Positions 28,771 through 63,740 of a stretch of 64,000 bases of DNA are shown here, one piece after another. Where the stretch lies: positions 62,001 through 126,000 of the forward strand of contig NZ_NBXD01000019.1 in assembly GCF_003399645.1 (NCBI RefSeq), read 5' to 3'. The stretch's first letter is position 1; the number at the start of each line of letters is the position of its first letter. A model generated the notes under the pieces. It was not told the DNA's origin. It was given only the letters and a program-made list of their open reading frames with translations, and did not search any database. Both the position numbers and the translations under genes were made by a program. The DNA comes from Subtercola boreus. Lineage in GTDB: Bacteria; Actinomycetota; Actinomycetes; Actinomycetales; Microbacteriaceae.

Positions 28771-30432
28771 CTACATCCGGTCGGGCGCCGAGACGCCAAG
28801 CAGGGCCAGGCCGTTGCGGATGACCTGACCCGTGGCATCGTTCAGCCACAGGCGGGTGCGGTGCAGGTCGGTGACCGCCTCGTCGCCGAGCGGCAGCACC
28901 CGGCAGCTCGCGTACCACCGGTGGTAGTGCCCGGCGACCTCTTCGAGATAGCGGGCGACGCGGTGCGGCTCTCGCAGCTCCGCCGACTGCGCGACGACGC
29001 GCGGCAGCTCCTGCAGCGATCCGAGCAGTTCGGTCTCGGTCTCGTGCGTCAGAAGTGACGGCTCGAAGGCACTGCGATCGACCCCGGCCGCCTCGGCGTT
29101 CTTCGCCACGGAGCGTGTGCGCGAGTGCGCGTACTGCACGTAGAACACCGGGTTGTCGTTCGTGCGCTCGCGCAACTTCTCGCCGTCGAGCGAGAGGGGT
29201 GAGTCGGCCGGATACCGGGCGAGCGAGTACCGCAGAGCATCCGCCCCCACCCAGTTGAGCAGGTCGTCGAGTTCGACGATGTTGCCGGCGCGCTTGGAGA
29301 GCTTGGCGCCGTTGAGATTCACGAGCTGGCCGATGAGCACCGTGATGTTGACGTCGGGATCGTCGCCGGCAGCCGCCGCGAGCGCCTTCAGTCGACCGAC
29401 GTAGCCGTGGTGGTCGGCGCCCAGCAGGTAGATCTTCTCGGTGAATCCGCGGTCCTTCTTGTTGAGGTAGTAGGCCGCGTCGGCCGCGAAGTAGGTCGTG
29501 ACGCCGTTGCCGCGGGTGAGCACACGGTCTTTGTCGTCGCCGAAGTCGGTGGTGCGCACCCACACCGCGTCGTCCTTCTCGAACACGTGGCCCTGTTCGG
29601 CGAGCCGCACGGCCGCGTCGTCGATGAGGCTCCTGCCCGTCTCGGGGTCGGCCACATGAAGGCTGCGCTCGGAGAAGTACACATCGAAGTGCACGTTGAA
29701 GTTCTCGAGCGACGTCTTGATCTCGTCGAGCTGCTGCAGGTAGCCCAGGTCGCGTGCCAGGGCGATCGCGTCATCGTGCGGGAGTGTGAGCAGGTCGGGT
29801 GCCTTCTCGAGCACGTGAGCGGCGAGCGCCTGCACGTACTCCCCCGGATAGCCGTTCTCAGGAGTCGGCTCACCCTTGGCGGCTGCGAGGATCGAGGCCC
29901 CGAAGTTGTCCATCTGGTTGCCGGCATCGTTGATGTAGTACTCGGTCGTGACCTCGGCTCCGGATGCCGTCAGCACGCGAGCGATCGCGTCACCGAGAGC
30001 GGCCCAGCGCGTGTGGCCGAGGTGCAACGGCCCGGTGGGATTGGCCGAGACGAACTCCATGTTGACGCTGAGCCCGTCGAGCACCGTCGTGTGACCGTAC
30101 CTGTCGCCCTGGTTCAGGATGCTGCGCACGATCTCTCCCGCCGCGGCGGTGTCGAGGGTGATGTTGATGAAACCCGGGCCCGCGACGTCGACCGATGCGA
30201 CGCCGTCGATGGCCTCGATGCCGGGGAGGAGTTCGGCGGCGAACGCGCGTGGGTTCGTTCCGAGCCGCTTCGCGAGCTTCATGGCGATGTTCGAGGTCCA
30301 GTCGCCGTGGTCGCGGTTGCGCGGGCGCTCCAGCAGAACGTCACCCAGAGTGATGCTCACGTCGTCGCCGCGCAGGCGAAGCCGATCGCCCACGATGTCG
30401 AACAGGGCGCTGGAGAGGTCTTCGGGAGTCAC
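28771..30432 (-). CDS. argS: Arginyl-tRNA synthetase
   Basis: This class I synthetase has 553 residues. The N-terminal Add-1 domain has [22 protein letters not shown]. The HIGH motif appears as [25 protein letters not shown]-like segment is [20 protein letters not shown], and the C-terminal anticodon-binding domain ends [43 protein letters not shown] chose the GTG at 30432 ([14 protein letters not shown]); a GTG at 30438 is equally possible. An in-frame extension upstream runs through the palindrome at 30489 and is not coding. In mycobacteria argS directly precedes lysA; here two envelope genes intervene. Confidence 0.95.
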
Positions 30433-30488
30433 GGGCACCAAGTCTACCGCGAGCCCCTCGGCCCTCCCGCGGCGCACAGGGCGGCCCC

Positions 30489-30542
30489 CGTTTTGCGCAA
30501 AAGCACCCAAGCCAGCGGCTTTGGGTGCTTTTGCGCAAAACG
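30489..30542. terminator. Long palindrome with GCGCAAAAGCACC core (copy 1)
   Basis: Two 22-bp arms match perfectly (30489-30510 and 30521-30542), and further pairing continues into the loop (GCC/GGC). Each arm contains TTTTGCGCAAAA, itself a palindrome. It lies 39 nt after the transglutaminase gene and upstream of argS, both on the minus strand. The same GCGCAAAAGCAC core recurs at 62722-62773. A bidirectional terminator is the simplest reading; a dispersed palindromic repeat is the alternative. Confidence 0.65.
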
Positions 30543-30580
30543 CGCGGAGCGGGCGCGGGGGGCGTGCGGGGGGGGGGGCG

Positions 30581-31375
30581 TCAGTGCAGCTGCACGAGTT
30601 CGCGGGTGTCATCGAGTGGCAGGGCATCCGCCGTCGCCGTCACCTCGAGCTCGCGCAGCGTCAGCCAGCCGCCGTGGTTGGTGAGAAAGGCGGTGTCGGC
30701 GGCATCTCTGCCCGTCGCGATGCGCACGAGGCTCTGCCGCGGGGCGAGCGCCGTCGCGTCGATGATGAACCATTCGCCGTCGACGAAGGCCTCGGCCACT
30801 GCGTGGAAGTCCATCGGGCTGAGGCCGGGCGCATAGACCGACACGAGCCGCGCCGGGATGTCGAGTCCGCGCAGCAGCGTGATGACGAGGTGGGCATAGT
30901 CCCGGCACACCCCCCGGCGGCTGAGCAGGGTCTGGATGGCACCGTCGGTCGGCAGGCTCGACCCCGGAACGTAGTTGAGCTTCTCACCCACCCACGAACT
31001 CACGCTGTCGAGCAGCATCCGCCCCGACAGCCCCCGGAACTCGGAGCGCGCGGTCGGCAGCAGGGTGTCGGACTCGCAGTAACGGCTCGGTCGCAGGTAC
31101 GTGATCAGGTCGTTCTTCGTGACCGGTGCCTGCGCAGCACTGCCGTCGACCTCGGCCCAGTAGTTCAGCGTGAGGCGGCCCGCCTCGGCGTCGAATTCGT
31201 GCAGCCGGGTACCGTGCACATCGAGAATGTCGACGGGGGTGATCGGATGCCCGTTGTACAGGTACTCGACCCGTTCGGAGGCGAGGCTCACGTTCGCCGC
31301 CGCGGCGACCGAGAACACGAGGTTCGCGGGAGCGTCGATGTCGCAGACGATGTGGGCGCTGACCGTTCGCTTCAT
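30581..31375 (-). CDS. Transglutaminase-like cysteine protease family protein
   Basis: This 264-residue soluble protein has the papain-like transglutaminase core: Cys157 in [11 protein letters not shown], His191 in [15 protein letters not shown] and Asp206 in FIIDATAL, a complete triad. The N-terminal half forms a beta-rich domain ([16 protein letters not shown]) seen in bacterial transglutaminase-like proteins. Substrate and reaction are unknown; the family includes peptidases and amidases. The ATG at 31375 has GGGAGGA about 9 nt upstream. It stands alone between argS and tRNA-Arg. Confidence 0.85.
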
Positions 31376-58892: not shown

Positions 58893-61800
58893 GTGTCAAG
58901 CCAGTTGACCGGAACGGGAACTGACGACGGTTCGTCGGGCGAATTCGGAGCGAACGAGTGGCTCGTCGACGAGCTGTACGAGCAGTACATCGTCGACAAG
59001 AACTCGGTCGACCAGTCGTGGTGGTCGATTCTCGAGCACTACAGGCCGAGCGGTTCGGCCGAGACGACCGATGCCGGCGCGACCGGCACGGGCGACAGCT
59101 CGACCGGCGAGGCCCAGATCCCCGACGAGATCGCCACACAGGATGTCGCGGCCACCCCCGCACCGAGCGAGACCCCCGCATCATCCGCACCGCCTGCGGC
59201 TCCAGCCACCCAACCCGTGGCCCGCACCACTTCCCGCGAACCCGCTCCGAAGCCCATCCCGGCGGAGGCCACCGTGCGCCCGCAGAGCGACGCCGAGGCC
59301 GAACAGGACAAGGTCAGCCCCCTCCGCGGGCCCGCCAAGTCGCTGGCGACCAACATGGATGCGAGCCTGTCGGTTCCGACGGCGACGAGCGTGCGCAGCA
59401 TCCCGGCCAAGCTCCTCATCGACAACCGCATCGTCATCAACTCGAACCTGAAGCGCGCCCGCGGCGGCAAAGTCAGTTTCACGCACCTCATCGGCTGGGC
59501 ACTCGTTCAGGTGCTCAAGGAGTTCCCCAGCCAGAACGTCTACTACGACGTACAGAACGACAAGCCCGTCGTCGTCTCCCCCGCCCACGTCGGCCTCGGT
59601 ATCGCCATCGACATGCCCAAGCCCGACGGCACCCGATCCCTCGTCGTGCCGGCCATCAAGCGCGCCGACACGATGCACTTCGGTGAGTTCCTCGCCGCCT
59701 ACGACGAACTCGTGGCCAAGGCCCGCGGCGGCAAGCTGACGGCTGCCGACTTCCAGGGCGCGACCATCTCCCTGACGAACCCCGGCGGCATCGGAACGGT
59801 GCACTCGATCCCGCGGCTCATGAAGGGATCGGGTGCCATCATCGGCGCCGGAGCCCTCGAGTACCCGGCCGAGTTCTCGGGCGCCTCTGCGAAGACGCTG
59901 ACCGACCTCGGCATCGGCAAGATCATCACGCTCACCAGCACCTACGACCACCGCGTCATCCAGGGTGCCGGCTCCGGTGAGTTCCTGAAGAAGGTGCACG
60001 AGCTGCTCATCGGCGAGCGGGGCTTCTACGAGAACATCTTCGCCGAACTCCGCATTCCGTACGTTCCGATCCACTGGAACTCCGACATCTCGGTCGACGT
60101 GAGCGATGCGGTCAACAAGACGGCCCGGGTGCAGGAACTCATCAACTCGTTCCGCGTGCGCGGCCACCTCATGGCCGACATCGACCCGCTCGAGTACAAG
60201 CAGCGCACCCACCCCGACCTCGACATCGAGAGCCACGGGCTCACCCTCTGGGATCTCGACCGCGAGTTCGTCACCGGCGGCCTCGGCGGAACCTCGTCGC
60301 TGCTGCTGCGCGACATCCTCGGCATCCTGCGCGATGCCTACTGCCGGAAGACCGGCATCGAGTACATGCATATCCAGGACCCCGAGCAGCGCAAGTGGAT
60401 CCAGGAGAAGATCGAGCGGCCCTATGCCAAGCCGGGGCACGACGAGCAGATGCGCATCCTGTCGAAGCTCAACGAGTCCGAGGCCTTCGAGACGTTCCTG
60501 CAGACCAAGTACGTCGGCCAGAAGCGCTTCAGCCTCGAAGGCGGCGAGTCGACGATCGCCCTGCTCGACGCGGTTCTCCAGGCCGCCGCAGACGAGGGGC
60601 TCGACGAAGTTGCCATCGGTATGGCGCACCGCGGTCGCCTCAACGTGCTGACCAACATCGCCGGCAAGACCTACGGCCAGATCTTCCGCGAGTTCGAAGG
60701 AACGCAGGACCCGCGCACCGTGCAGGGCTCGGGTGACGTGAAGTACCACCTCGGCACCGAGGGCACCTTCACCGGAACCGAGGGCAAGGAGATCCCGGTC
60801 TACATCGCGGCGAACCCCTCGCACCTGGAGGCGGTCGACGGCGTGCTCGAGGGGATCGTTCGCGCCAAGCAGGATCGGAAGCCCAAGGGCACCTATTCCA
60901 CGCTCCCGATCCTGGTGCATGGCGACGCCGCCATGGCCGGCCAGGGAATCGTCTACGAGACCCTGCAGATGGAGAAGCTCCGCGGCTACAAGATCGGTGG
61001 AACGATCCACGTCAACATCAACAACCAGGTCGGGTTCACGACGCGTCCGAGCGATTCACGCTCCTCCGTGTACTCCACCGATGTGGCGAAGTCGATCCAG
61101 GCGCCGATCTTCCACGTGAACGGCGACGACCCCGAGTCGGTCACCCGCGTCGCCCAGCTGGCATTCGAGTACCGCCAGCGCTTCCACGCCGACGTCGTCA
61201 TCGATCTCATCTGCTACCGCCGCCGCGGTCACAATGAGGGAGACGACCCCTCGATGACGCAGCCGCTGATGTACAACCTCATCGAAGCCAAGCGCTCCGT
61301 GCGGAGGCTCTACACGGAGTCGCTGATCGGGCGCGGCGACATCAGCCAGGAGGAGTACGAGGCCGCGCACCGCGACTTCCAGGACCGCCTCGAGCGCGCC
61401 TTCGCCGAGACCCACGCAGCACAGACCTCGTCGATCCCGATCATCACCGACGACATGAACGCCGTGGCCGACCTCGAGCGCCCCGAGGCGCAGCAGGCCG
61501 ACGACAGCTCGGCGGGCGAGCCCGAGACGACCGGCGTCCCCGCCGCGACCGTCGCGCTCATCGGCGACGCGTTCAACAACGCACCGGCCGGTTTCACCGT
61601 GCATCCGAAGCTGCAGCAGCTGCTGCAGAAGCGTGTCGAGATGAGCCGCAACGGCGGCATCGACTGGGCGTTCGGTGAACTGCTGGCCCTCGGCTCGCTG
61701 CTGCTCGAGGGCACCCCGGTGCGCTTCTCGGGCCAGGACACCCGGCGCGGCACCTTCGTACAGCGCCACGCGGTGCTGCACGACCGCGACAACGGCCAGG

Positions 61801-62684
61801 AGTGGCTGCCCCTCGTCAACCTCAGCGACAGCCAGGCCCGGTTCTGGATCTACGACTCGCTGCTGAGCGAATACGCGGCCATGGGCTTCGAGTACGGCTA
61901 CTCGGTCGAGCGTCCCGACGCCCTCGTGCTCTGGGAGGCCCAGTTCGGCGACTTCGCCAACGGCGCCCAGATCATCATCGACGAGTTCATCTCGTCGGCC
62001 GAGCAGAAGTGGGGCCAGCGCTCATCGCTCGTGCTGCTGCTGCCGCACGGGTACGAAGGCCAGGGCCCCGACCATTCCTCCGCCCGCATCGAGCGCTACC
62101 TGCAGCTGTGCGCCGAGAACAACATGACCGTCGCCCGGCCCTCGACTCCGGCGTCGTACTTCCACCTGCTGCGCCGCCAGGCCTACATGCGCCCCCGCCG
62201 CCCGCTGATCGTGTTCACCCCCAAGGCGATGCTGCGGCTGAGAGGTGCGACCAGCGGGGTCGAGGAGCTCACCGAGGGCAAGTTCGAGCCCGTGCTCGAC
62301 GACGCCCGCATCGGCGACAGGACAGCCGTGAAGCGCGTGTTGCTGATGGCCGGCAAGGTCTACTACGACCTGCTGAACGAGCTGCAGAAGACACCGAACG
62401 ACGAGATCGCCCTCGTACGGCTCGAGCAGTACTACCCGATGCCCGCCGCCGAACTCAACCGGGTGCTCGCGAGCTACCCGAACGCTGAGATCGTCTGGGT
62501 TCAGGATGAACCGCAGAACCAGGGGGCGTGGCCGTTTGTGTGCCTCGAGCTGGCCTCGCGCCTGCCCGCCGGCCGCACCGTTCGGGTCACCTCCCGTGCG
62601 GCGGCGGCCTCACCCGCAGCCGGATCGGCGAAGCGCCACGCCCGCGAACAGGCCGACCTGCTGCAGCGGGCCCTGACCCTCTGA
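58893..62684 (+). CDS. kgd: Multifunctional 2-oxoglutarate dehydrogenase/decarboxylase (E1 with fused E2-like domain)
   Basis: This is the actinobacterial KGD/SucA of the TCA cycle, 1,263 residues. The N-terminal ANEWLVDELYEQYIVDKNSVDQSWW contacts partners. A Pro/Ala/Thr-rich linker of roughly 90 residues follows, then an E2-type acyltransferase domain with H353 in TYDHRVIQGAGSGEFL. The thiamine-diphosphate E1 core (IGMAHRGRLNVLTNIAGK near 575, FHVNGDDPESV, YRRRGHNEGDDPSMTQP) completes it. It lacks a lipoyl domain, as in mycobacteria, where it works with DlaT and Lpd and is restrained by GarA. The start is GTG 58893. Confidence 0.96.
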   Translation: MSSQLTGTGTDDGSSGEFGANEWLVDELYEQYIVDKNSVDQSWWSILEHYRPSGSAETTDAGATGTGDSSTGEAQIPDEIATQDVAATPAPSETPASSAPPAAPATQPVARTTSREPAPKPIPAEATVRPQSDAEAEQDKVSPLRGPAKSLATNMDASLSVPTATSVRSIPAKLLIDNRIVINSNLKRARGGKVSFTHLIGWALVQVLKEFPSQNVYYDVQNDKPVVVSPAHVGLGIAIDMPKPDGTRSLVVPAIKRADTMHFGEFLAAYDELVAKARGGKLTAADFQGATISLTNPGGIGTVHSIPRLMKGSGAIIGAGALEYPAEFSGASAKTLTDLGIGKIITLTSTYDHRVIQGAGSGEFLKKVHELLIGERGFYENIFAELRIPYVPIHWNSDISVDVSDAVNKTARVQELINSFRVRGHLMADIDPLEYKQRTHPDLDIESHGLTLWDLDREFVTGGLGGTSSLLLRDILGILRDAYCRKTGIEYMHIQDPEQRKWIQEKIERPYAKPGHDEQMRILSKLNESEAFETFLQTKYVGQKRFSLEGGESTIALLDAVLQAAADEGLDEVAIGMAHRGRLNVLTNIAGKTYGQIFREFEGTQDPRTVQGSGDVKYHLGTEGTFTGTEGKEIPVYIAANPSHLEAVDGVLEGIVRAKQDRKPKGTYSTLPILVHGDAAMAGQGIVYETLQMEKLRGYKIGGTIHVNINNQVGFTTRPSDSRSSVYSTDVAKSIQAPIFHVNGDDPESVTRVAQLAFEYRQRFHADVVIDLICYRRRGHNEGDDPSMTQPLMYNLIEAKRSVRRLYTESLIGRGDISQEEYEAAHRDFQDRLERAFAETHAAQTSSIPIITDDMNAVADLERPEAQQADDSSAGEPETTGVPAATVALIGDAFNNAPAGFTVHPKLQQLLQKRVEMSRNGGIDWAFGELLALGSLLLEGTPVRFSGQDTRRGTFVQRHAVLHDRDNGQEWLPLVNLSDSQARFWIYDSLLSEYAAMGFEYGYSVERPDALVLWEAQFGDFANGAQIIIDEFISSAEQKWGQRSSLVLLLPHGYEGQGPDHSSARIERYLQLCAENNMTVARPSTPASYFHLLRRQAYMRPRRPLIVFTPKAMLRLRGATSGVEELTEGKFEPVLDDARIGDRTAVKRVLLMAGKVYYDLLNELQKTPNDEIALVRLEQYYPMPAAELNRVLASYPNAEIVWVQDEPQNQGAWPFVCLELASRLPAGRTVRVTSRAAAASPAAGSAKRHAREQADLLQRALTL

Positions 62685-62721: not shown

Positions 62722-62773
62722 GTTGTGCGCAAAAGCACCTAAACCGCAAGGTCTAAGTGCTTTTGCGCACAAC
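62722..62773. terminator. Long palindrome with GCGCAAAAGCAC core (copy 2)
   Basis: Perfect 17-bp arms GTTGTGCGCAAAAGCAC (62722-62738) and its complement (62757-62773) frame an imperfect inner stem (CTAAACC/GGTCTAAG). It lies 37 nt after the kgd stop, between convergent kgd and rsrA, the expected place for a bidirectional terminator. It shares its core with the palindrome at 30489-30542. Confidence 0.7.
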
Positions 62774-62841: not shown

Positions 62842-63084
62842 CTAGTGCGTGCTCTGGATCTGACGGATGCTGAACAGCACCTGGTCACGCAACTGTTCGG
62901 GCGCGACCTCCTTGCAGGCGCGCTGTACGGCGTCGGTCAGCACGCGGCCGACGTGCAGCTCCGACTCGCAGTCGGTGCAGCCGGCGAGATGCTCACGGAT
63001 GTCGGCAGCATCGTCGCTGGCGAGTTCGTTGTGGAGGAACTCCTCGAGTTCGGCCTTGGCCTTCGTGCAGCCGCAGTCAGTCAT
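62842..63084 (-). CDS. rsrA: Mycothiol-system zinc anti-sigma factor (RsrA/RshA type)
   Basis: The protein has 80 residues. The ZAS zinc motif H32-x3-C36-x2-C39 in [11 protein letters not shown], with extra cysteines C4 and C6, marks a redox-sensing anti-sigma factor. Oxidation is expected to release zinc and its sigma factor. The start overlaps the sigH stop (4 bp), so sigma and anti-sigma are coupled. Length and motif match RsrA of Streptomyces and RshA of mycobacteria. Confidence 0.93.
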
Positions 63085-63740
63085 CTGCTGCTTCCCTTCG
63101 GTGCGTCTTTCGCGGTGACGGGGATTCCCCGGCCCTCCGCGTACTCGGTCAGCAGACCGCGGAGCAGACGCCTGCCACGGTGCAGGCGGCTCATCACGGT
63201 TCCGACCGGAGTCTTCATGATGTCGGCGATCTCCTGGTAGGAGAAGCCCTCCACGTCGGCCAGGTACACGGCCAGACGAAAGTCTTCGGGGATGCTCTGC
63301 AGGGCATCCTTCACTGCACTGTCGGGCAGATGGTCGATCGCCTCGGCCTCGGCCGAGCGGGATGATGTCCCGGTCGCCGTCGCCGACTCGGCGTTGCCCA
63401 GCTGCCAGTCCTCGAGGTCGCTCGTCGTGCCCTGGTAGGGGTCACGCTGCTTCTTGCGGTAGACATTGATGAACGTGTTGGTGAGGATGCGGTACAGCCA
63501 CGCCTTGAGGTTCGTGCCTTGCTCGAACTGGGCGAAGGCAGCGTAGGCCTTGACGAACGTCTCCTGTACGAGGTCTTGCGCGTCGGCGGGGTTGCGGGTC
63601 ATGCGAAGGGCAGCGCCGTACAACTGGTCGAGGAACGGAACGGCCTGCTCCTCGAAGAGCGCTCGTGGGTCGGTGTCAACGGAAGTCATCGGGGCCAAGT
63701 CTACGATGTGGGGCCGCTCGAGAACGCTGGTCGCGCCCAT
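63081..63740 (-). CDS. sigH: ECF sigma factor of the SigH/SigR redox-stress group
   Basis: The protein has 219 residues. Region 2 is [48 protein letters not shown], and region 4 is [41 protein letters not shown]. The pairing with RsrA places it in the group that responds to disulfide stress in mycothiol-using bacteria. I chose the ATG at 63740, which has AAGGTGG about 8 nt upstream. An internal ATG at 63689 ([15 protein letters not shown]) is also reasonable, and the frame stays open to 63791. Confidence 0.92.

Follow-up and report, generated by a model that had tools for sequence, protein, structure and literature searches.

The window, i.e., the whole stretch of 64 kb analyzed in this work, contains two long dyads. 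The first one (element 1, 30489..30542, no strand assigned) lies between a transglutaminase-like gene (30581..31375, minus strand), the 3' end of which faces it, and argS, coding for arginyl-tRNA synthetase (28771..30438, minus strand), the start of which is 52 bp from the element. The second one (element 2, 62722..62773, likewise unstranded) has the 3' ends of two convergent genes facing it, namely those of 2-oxoglutarate dehydrogenase (58893..62684, plus strand) and of a zf-HC2 protein (62842..63084, minus strand). The latter protein is presumably anti-sigma-like, as read from the sigma-70 gene adjacent to it (63081-63740). Gene bounds were obtained with a codon-based gene finder and product names from Pfam, so the convergent, tandem and divergent context classes used below carry some error. 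A run of 11 G was observed at 30568-30578, in the gap from element 1 to the 3' end of the transglutaminase-like gene.

The arms of element 1 (30489-30510 and 30521-30542) are 22 nt each, 100% complementary and separated by 10 nt, in full agreement with the earlier note, which described two 22-bp arms parting the transglutaminase gene from argS. Those of element 2 (62722-62745 and 62750-62773) are 24 nt each, 92% complementary and separated by 4 nt; the complementary outer flanks claimed for this second copy were seen at both window sites. The core common to both elements is the 12-bp GCGCAAAAGCAC, and its four exact matches in the window form two inverted pairs: the left cores are on the plus strand (30495..30506 and 62727..62738), the inverted right ones on the minus strand (30525..30536 and 62757..62768), with 18 bp between the cores in either dyad. 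The claim of a long palindrome sharing its core with a second site was thereby upheld for these 12 bp, the 13th letter of the claimed core being absent from the right arm of element 2. No Rfam family matched either element.

With two mismatches allowed, the window contained 6 core matches vs 4.86 in shuffled sequences. Since the window alone displays no enrichment at this threshold, the case against chance rests on the exact paired sites and on the genome-wide count: in the own genome (G000; 3.67 Mb, 86 contigs) 75 exact GCGCAAAAGCAC sites were found vs 1 for the reversed control. On these two grounds a chance origin was rejected. In the dyads made up by the 75 exact cores, both cores are exact in 34 cases and one core in 7, and 47 dyads were collected when variant cores were admitted. 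The search for paired cores throughout the own genome and its relatives revealed many further copies, placed non-randomly, so that neither a lack of further copies nor their random scatter, both of which the earlier note had envisaged, describes the family.

The spacing of the two halves turned out to be fixed. With gaps of 6-30 bp allowed, 18 bp separated the cores in 34 of the 34 G000 dyads with full cores (33 of them listed directly by the dyad search, the last one derived from core positions), and the same gap was obtained with a shorter core (35/35 in G000) and in five relatives with matches (27/27). On the complete chromosome of G009, a search with a 7-bp arm word and gaps of 4-30 bp gave 34 dyads vs 3 for the control, 33 of which shared one length, the remaining one being a base longer. 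When 800 kb of G009 was scanned with a degenerate half-site, the motif being fixed (at least 14 of 16 positions per half) and the spacing and place free, with half-site starts at most 119 bp apart, 18 dyads were obtained, all with 16 bp between the 16-bp half-sites. The element is laid out over ~50-58 bp as a half-site near TTT-GCGnAnAnGCnCC, a free interior of 16 bp and an inverted half-site. Unpaired half-sites numbered 13 in the same 800 kb vs 26 matches of the reversed motif, and two of these 13, each with a weaker partner next to it, are located in convergent gaps; as there is no excess of lone half-sites, a larger transposon with these ends was rejected. Some loci hold more than one element. 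Three near-identical ones stand in close tandem between convergent genes (L209, positions 2493, 2629 and 2812; G009 C1 ~3908340-3908700), and in four species one gene cluster (L017, L168, L180, L200) holds two or three elements, their class being different in G009; inspection by eye of the genes flanking a multi-element locus revealed nothing out of the ordinary.

The distribution of the elements relative to genes is strongly biased. Among 154 elements placed in eight genomes (G002 contributing 13 of the 39 seen in it), 87 were convergent, 58 tandem and 3 divergent, 5 lay within predicted genes and 1 at a contig edge. In the 800-kb scan of G009, 15 of the 18 dyads were convergent, 3 tandem and none divergent or intragenic (P ~7e-9 by intergenic bases), and tandem copies were closer to the upstream stop in 35 of 43 cases. 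No even spacing or ori/ter bias was detected among 34 G009 copies. In 800 kb of G009, where gaps of 50 bp or more were counted, strong inverted repeats of whatever kind occupied 45% of the 84 convergent gaps, 14% of the 257 tandem gaps and 3% of the 124 divergent gaps; over 195 kb of the element-free G003, such a repeat was found in 1 of 13 convergent gaps. An element-like dyad within a predicted gene was observed at matching places in G009 (L194, position 1955) and G006 (L292), where the gene call may be wrong.

Such a location, together with an A-tract/GC-stem/T-tract layout, would be expected of plain bidirectional intrinsic terminators, i.e., an RNA hairpin with a short U-tract after it, similar among copies by common descent and with no further recognition, which we consider quite unlikely to be the whole explanation. 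One element class, GCGAAAAAGCCCC...GGGGCTTTTTCGC, does possess T5, and element 1 was flagged by the terminator scan on the same strand as the transglutaminase gene. The single match in a viral collection has the appearance of a usual phage hairpin with T5; it led us to reject a phage origin, and also demonstrates that such a hairpin fits the same pattern. In G000, however, the T-tract is short, consisting of T4 followed by GCGC (TTTTGCGC), and in the main G009 class it is broken (TTCT, TTCTGCGC), so the mechanism need not be a plain intrinsic one. Over 20 kb the terminator scan gave 2 sites vs 5.8 in shuffled sequences, and the T-tract asymmetry of tandem copies was 8 vs 4 with 5 ties (P 0.39).

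The sequences of the elements permit a closer view of what is constrained in them. The 47 collected G000 dyads, like the sets used for the folding, consensus and context tests, came from pattern searches favouring good arms. The arms are near-invariant, and a palindromic consensus extends to the inner bases and to the flanks; conservation of the half-site drops away on either side of the core. The earlier note had taken the covarying flanks as a sign of selection on both structure and sequence. The sequence constraint is indeed strong, but flank covariation as a sign of selection on structure was not borne out for this genome: in 46 copies from G000 (one further copy, within a predicted gene, being left out) the paired fraction of the flanks was 0.655 vs 0.654 after random re-pairing of halves, and that of the inner bases 0.577 vs 0.583. 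The respective values for G009 were 0.681 vs 0.670 (flanks) and 0.494 vs 0.490 (inner bases), i.e., the halves vary independently at the flanks and in the interior in these two genomes. When native elements were folded and compared with chimeras of halves swapped between elements, no hairpin co-adaptation was detected in G000 (n = 34, P 0.34) or G009 (n = 22, P 0.64), in contrast to 21 Mycobacterium palindromes (among the matches listed), for which native folding surpassed all 2000 permutations. As in-register pairs alone gave a non-significant 0.22 for the same Mycobacterium control, the in-register test is the less sensitive of the two.

Several other observations are as a hairpin would give. 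The pooled folding test of G002, G005 and G006 indicated co-adaptation (0.001), and pairing of the inner positions 18-21 in these three reached 0.0005 within genomes (n = 19); it was weaker in larger sets with inner positions 13-21 (0.038, 0.0055 and 0.043), and significance was lost within one arm class (0.10-0.42). Symmetric arm changes, also in keeping with a hairpin, occur at positions 6 and 8 in G000, 4 and 6 in G009, 4, 6 and 8 in G002, and 4, 6, 8 and 11 in G006. These changes track sub-families, of which each genome has several, and pairing at position 8 is at chance in G005 (0.55 vs 0.57, n = 20) and in G021/G223 (0.50 vs 0.53, n = 10), hence arm symmetry is not needed at every position. 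Plain intrinsic terminators would account for the symmetric changes and the inner pairing, but hardly for the chance-level mismatches at position 8, the near-invariant sequence, the fixed interior length and the lack of co-adaptation in two genomes.

The range of the elements is restricted to the lineage, being narrow and patchy within Microbacteriaceae. The family is present in 5 of 12 Subtercola genomes, seven congeners being without it; Subtercola sp. RYN_59, Subtercola sp. RYN_58 and S. lobariae carry matches (among the matches listed), and three more genomes of the genus have a single match to the loosest pattern, two of these matches being seen as unrelated. Beyond the genus, the elements occur in a few species of two further genera: a draw of 299 family genomes, outside which G002, G005, G006, G009 and G010 stood, had 4 positives including G000 (6 matches in G021, 6 in G223 and 1 in G110), and a class-level draw of 393 other genomes had none, with one match for the reversed control. 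The flank differs between species, being GGGTC/GACCC in all 5 loci inspected in G021 and, for the most part, ACTCG/CGAGT in G223. The Y1 transposase of RAYT (PF01797) was found in none of the 12 Subtercola genomes, several of which are drafts, and in 5 of 14 control genomes. On this basis RAYT-driven REP elements were rejected, and the earlier suggestion of a REP-like element is not supported in this strict sense.

Comparison of orthologous sites gives an insight into the history of the elements. Among the loci compared, G000 and G009 have three sites in common with both neighbour genes, and element 2 shares the zf-HC2 gene on one side with a G009 element. In eight sets of orthologous sites, the arms can be aligned but little else between the gene ends. 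From 25 G006 elements, eleven G006/G009 site pairs were set out, four of the same class and seven class-changed (as assigned by reading of alignment rows). In the four same-class pairs 14-18 of the 18 interior positions are alike; in the seven class-changed ones the central 14 bp of the interiors agree at 4.7 positions on average, as do those of non-orthologous pairs (4.7). At the four same-class sites the arms had changed at 3 of 104 positions and the interiors at 10 of 64 (P 0.005), which manifests constraint on the arms; two arm changes in one of these pairs (L291/L196) are symmetric, as would be expected of a hairpin too. Two other palindrome families were observed in G009. Family C, in 800 kb of this genome, has the form GAGAGCGAC..CGGACGAG with a 22 bp interior in 14 of 14 copies, mostly at convergent gene ends (C1 6563, 23240, 158610, 489133 and ten more), none being observed in stretches of the own genome totalling 243 kb; family D has CGAGTTTGTGCGGGT arms and a 13 bp interior in 4 of 4 copies (C1 52963, 182528, 375244, 433717). 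Six sites had both neighbours matched in the 800 kb of G009: a family C palindrome stands there at two of them (the first element of L043, and L165), a hairpin carrying an extended T run takes the place of the element at L179, the same family is kept at L177, and no palindrome was seen by eye at the second element of L043 or at L164.

Dispersal is best shown by two features. The similarity of loci L004 and L028 is confined to the element (47 of 50 positions), their flanks agreeing at 14 and 26 of 56 positions with ~19 expected at random. Similar interiors are in excess: 143 pairs vs 91 in G000, and 26 vs 9 in G009 with tandem copies included, the main class alone giving 6 vs 3.4 (0.13). Both features, along with the patchy range, the multiple sub-families in each genome and the class change at seven of the eleven G006/G009 pairs, would suit non-autonomous mobile palindromes (MITE- or REP-like) with no host role, the arms of which would be ends for a putative transposase and the copies of which would survive where harmless, past gene ends. 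A G006 element (L290) even sits in 121 bp missing from G009, but this difference is wider than the element and no target duplication is visible in it; a second element-free site (L293) is known by BLAST coordinates only. Considering also that no Y1 transposase was found in the 12 Subtercola genomes, the lone half-sites being no more numerous than in the control in 800 kb of G009, the interior length fixed in spite of near-random interiors and the arms constrained at orthologous sites, we hold mobile palindromes of this kind to be rather unlikely.

No paper on these Subtercola elements was found in the open-licence literature searched, and the known systems resemble them in part. TRIT, reportedly the tuberculosis Rho-independent terminator, is said to come from the RNIE paper of Gardner et al. 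2011. Mycobacterium palindromes of the form GCGAGCAGACGCAAAAGCACC, with strong hairpin co-adaptation, were observed at L055, L057, L061, L062, L064 and other loci (among the matches listed), and are perhaps related to TRIT. The palindromes of the Mycobacterium asiaticum group and TRIT are comparable to the Subtercola elements in that many near-identical palindromes occur per actinobacterial genome and an A-tract/stem/T-tract is enclosed in a longer palindrome, the likeness of the Mycobacterium cores stemming from the query used. The Mycobacterium set, unlike the Subtercola elements, which have one interior length and lack hairpin co-adaptation in G000 and G009, shows such co-adaptation and has two interior lengths (5 at 19 and 21 at 20, n = 26 among the matches listed). 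The TRIT name appears in an excerpt of PMC3526491. Repeated palindromes of dispersed stem-loop families favour convergent gaps and 3' ends, according to excerpts of two papers (PMC1590033, PMC2267715); compared with these families, the Subtercola elements are set apart by their fixed interior, by classes swapped at one and the same gene end, and by halves that vary independently in G000 and G009. REP elements with RAYT are likewise extragenic palindromes at 3' ends in many copies, but no Y1_Tnp protein accompanies the Subtercola ones. Bidirectional intrinsic terminators have the same position and layout, while in Subtercola the constraint on sequence and length exceeds pairing, and the T-tract is short or broken in most classes. 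What is unusual here is the combination of constant interior length, independent halves (in two genomes), class change at the same ends and narrow patchy range.

Taken together, the placement of the elements and the fact that a relative has other palindromes or a U-run terminator at corresponding gene ends suggest a gene-end function, most simply bidirectional termination, and the sequence statistics point to a constraint on two half-sites in fixed phase, like that of a protein on double-stranded DNA. Beyond the observed copy number, fixed spacing, gene-end placement and arm constraint at four orthologous sites, we infer that transcription would end at the elements from both sides, and that a putative sequence-specific factor would recognise the two halves in the double-stranded state; fixed spacing without hairpin co-adaptation would thereby be accounted for. 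We regard the chances as evenly balanced that the elements terminate transcription in both directions, or act as boundaries, where convergent and tandem units meet, and as a little short of even that double-stranded recognition is part of the gene-end function. The short or broken T-tract, the terminator scan below its shuffled level, the six matched G009 sites in so far as one keeps the same family and two show no palindrome, the symmetric arm changes, the inner pairing in G002, G005 and G006, and the lack of the family in seven of 12 congeners count against this terminator and double-strand reading. Of the options raised in the earlier note, a genome-wide class, lying at gene 3' ends, was supported (75 vs 1 cores in G000; 154 elements placed), and 'terminator class' and 'protein-binding site' may both be right.

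Alternatively, the elements could be bound as double-stranded DNA by a protein that serves not termination but chromosome organisation, supercoiling or regulation. This would agree with the fixed spacing, with half-site conservation fading on both sides of the core, with the independent halves in two genomes and with the species-specific flanks of G021 and G223. Such a role would seem quite unlikely, as the 34 G009 copies are neither evenly spaced nor biased to ori or ter, a candidate factor was not found in a search that covered PF01797, and a U-run terminator or other palindromes stand at corresponding gene ends in a relative. Returning to termination by a factor on the half-sites, a more specific version, which we deem unlikely, is a roadblock terminator: a DNA-binding protein of some Microbacteriaceae would bind fixed-phase half-sites at tens of gene ends and block RNA polymerase both ways, with species-dependent specificity (arm positions 4, 6, 8 and 11, and the flank) and with sites exchanged class by class at the same ends.

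Gene-end palindromes are usually taken as RNA hairpins; here the many-copy statistics of two genomes speak for double-stranded recognition in fixed phase and against pairing as the principal constraint. The swapping of element classes at a given gene end constitutes a natural experiment, and, if the proposed recognition is true, protein-based ending or insulation of convergent transcription in GC-rich actinobacteria would become testable.
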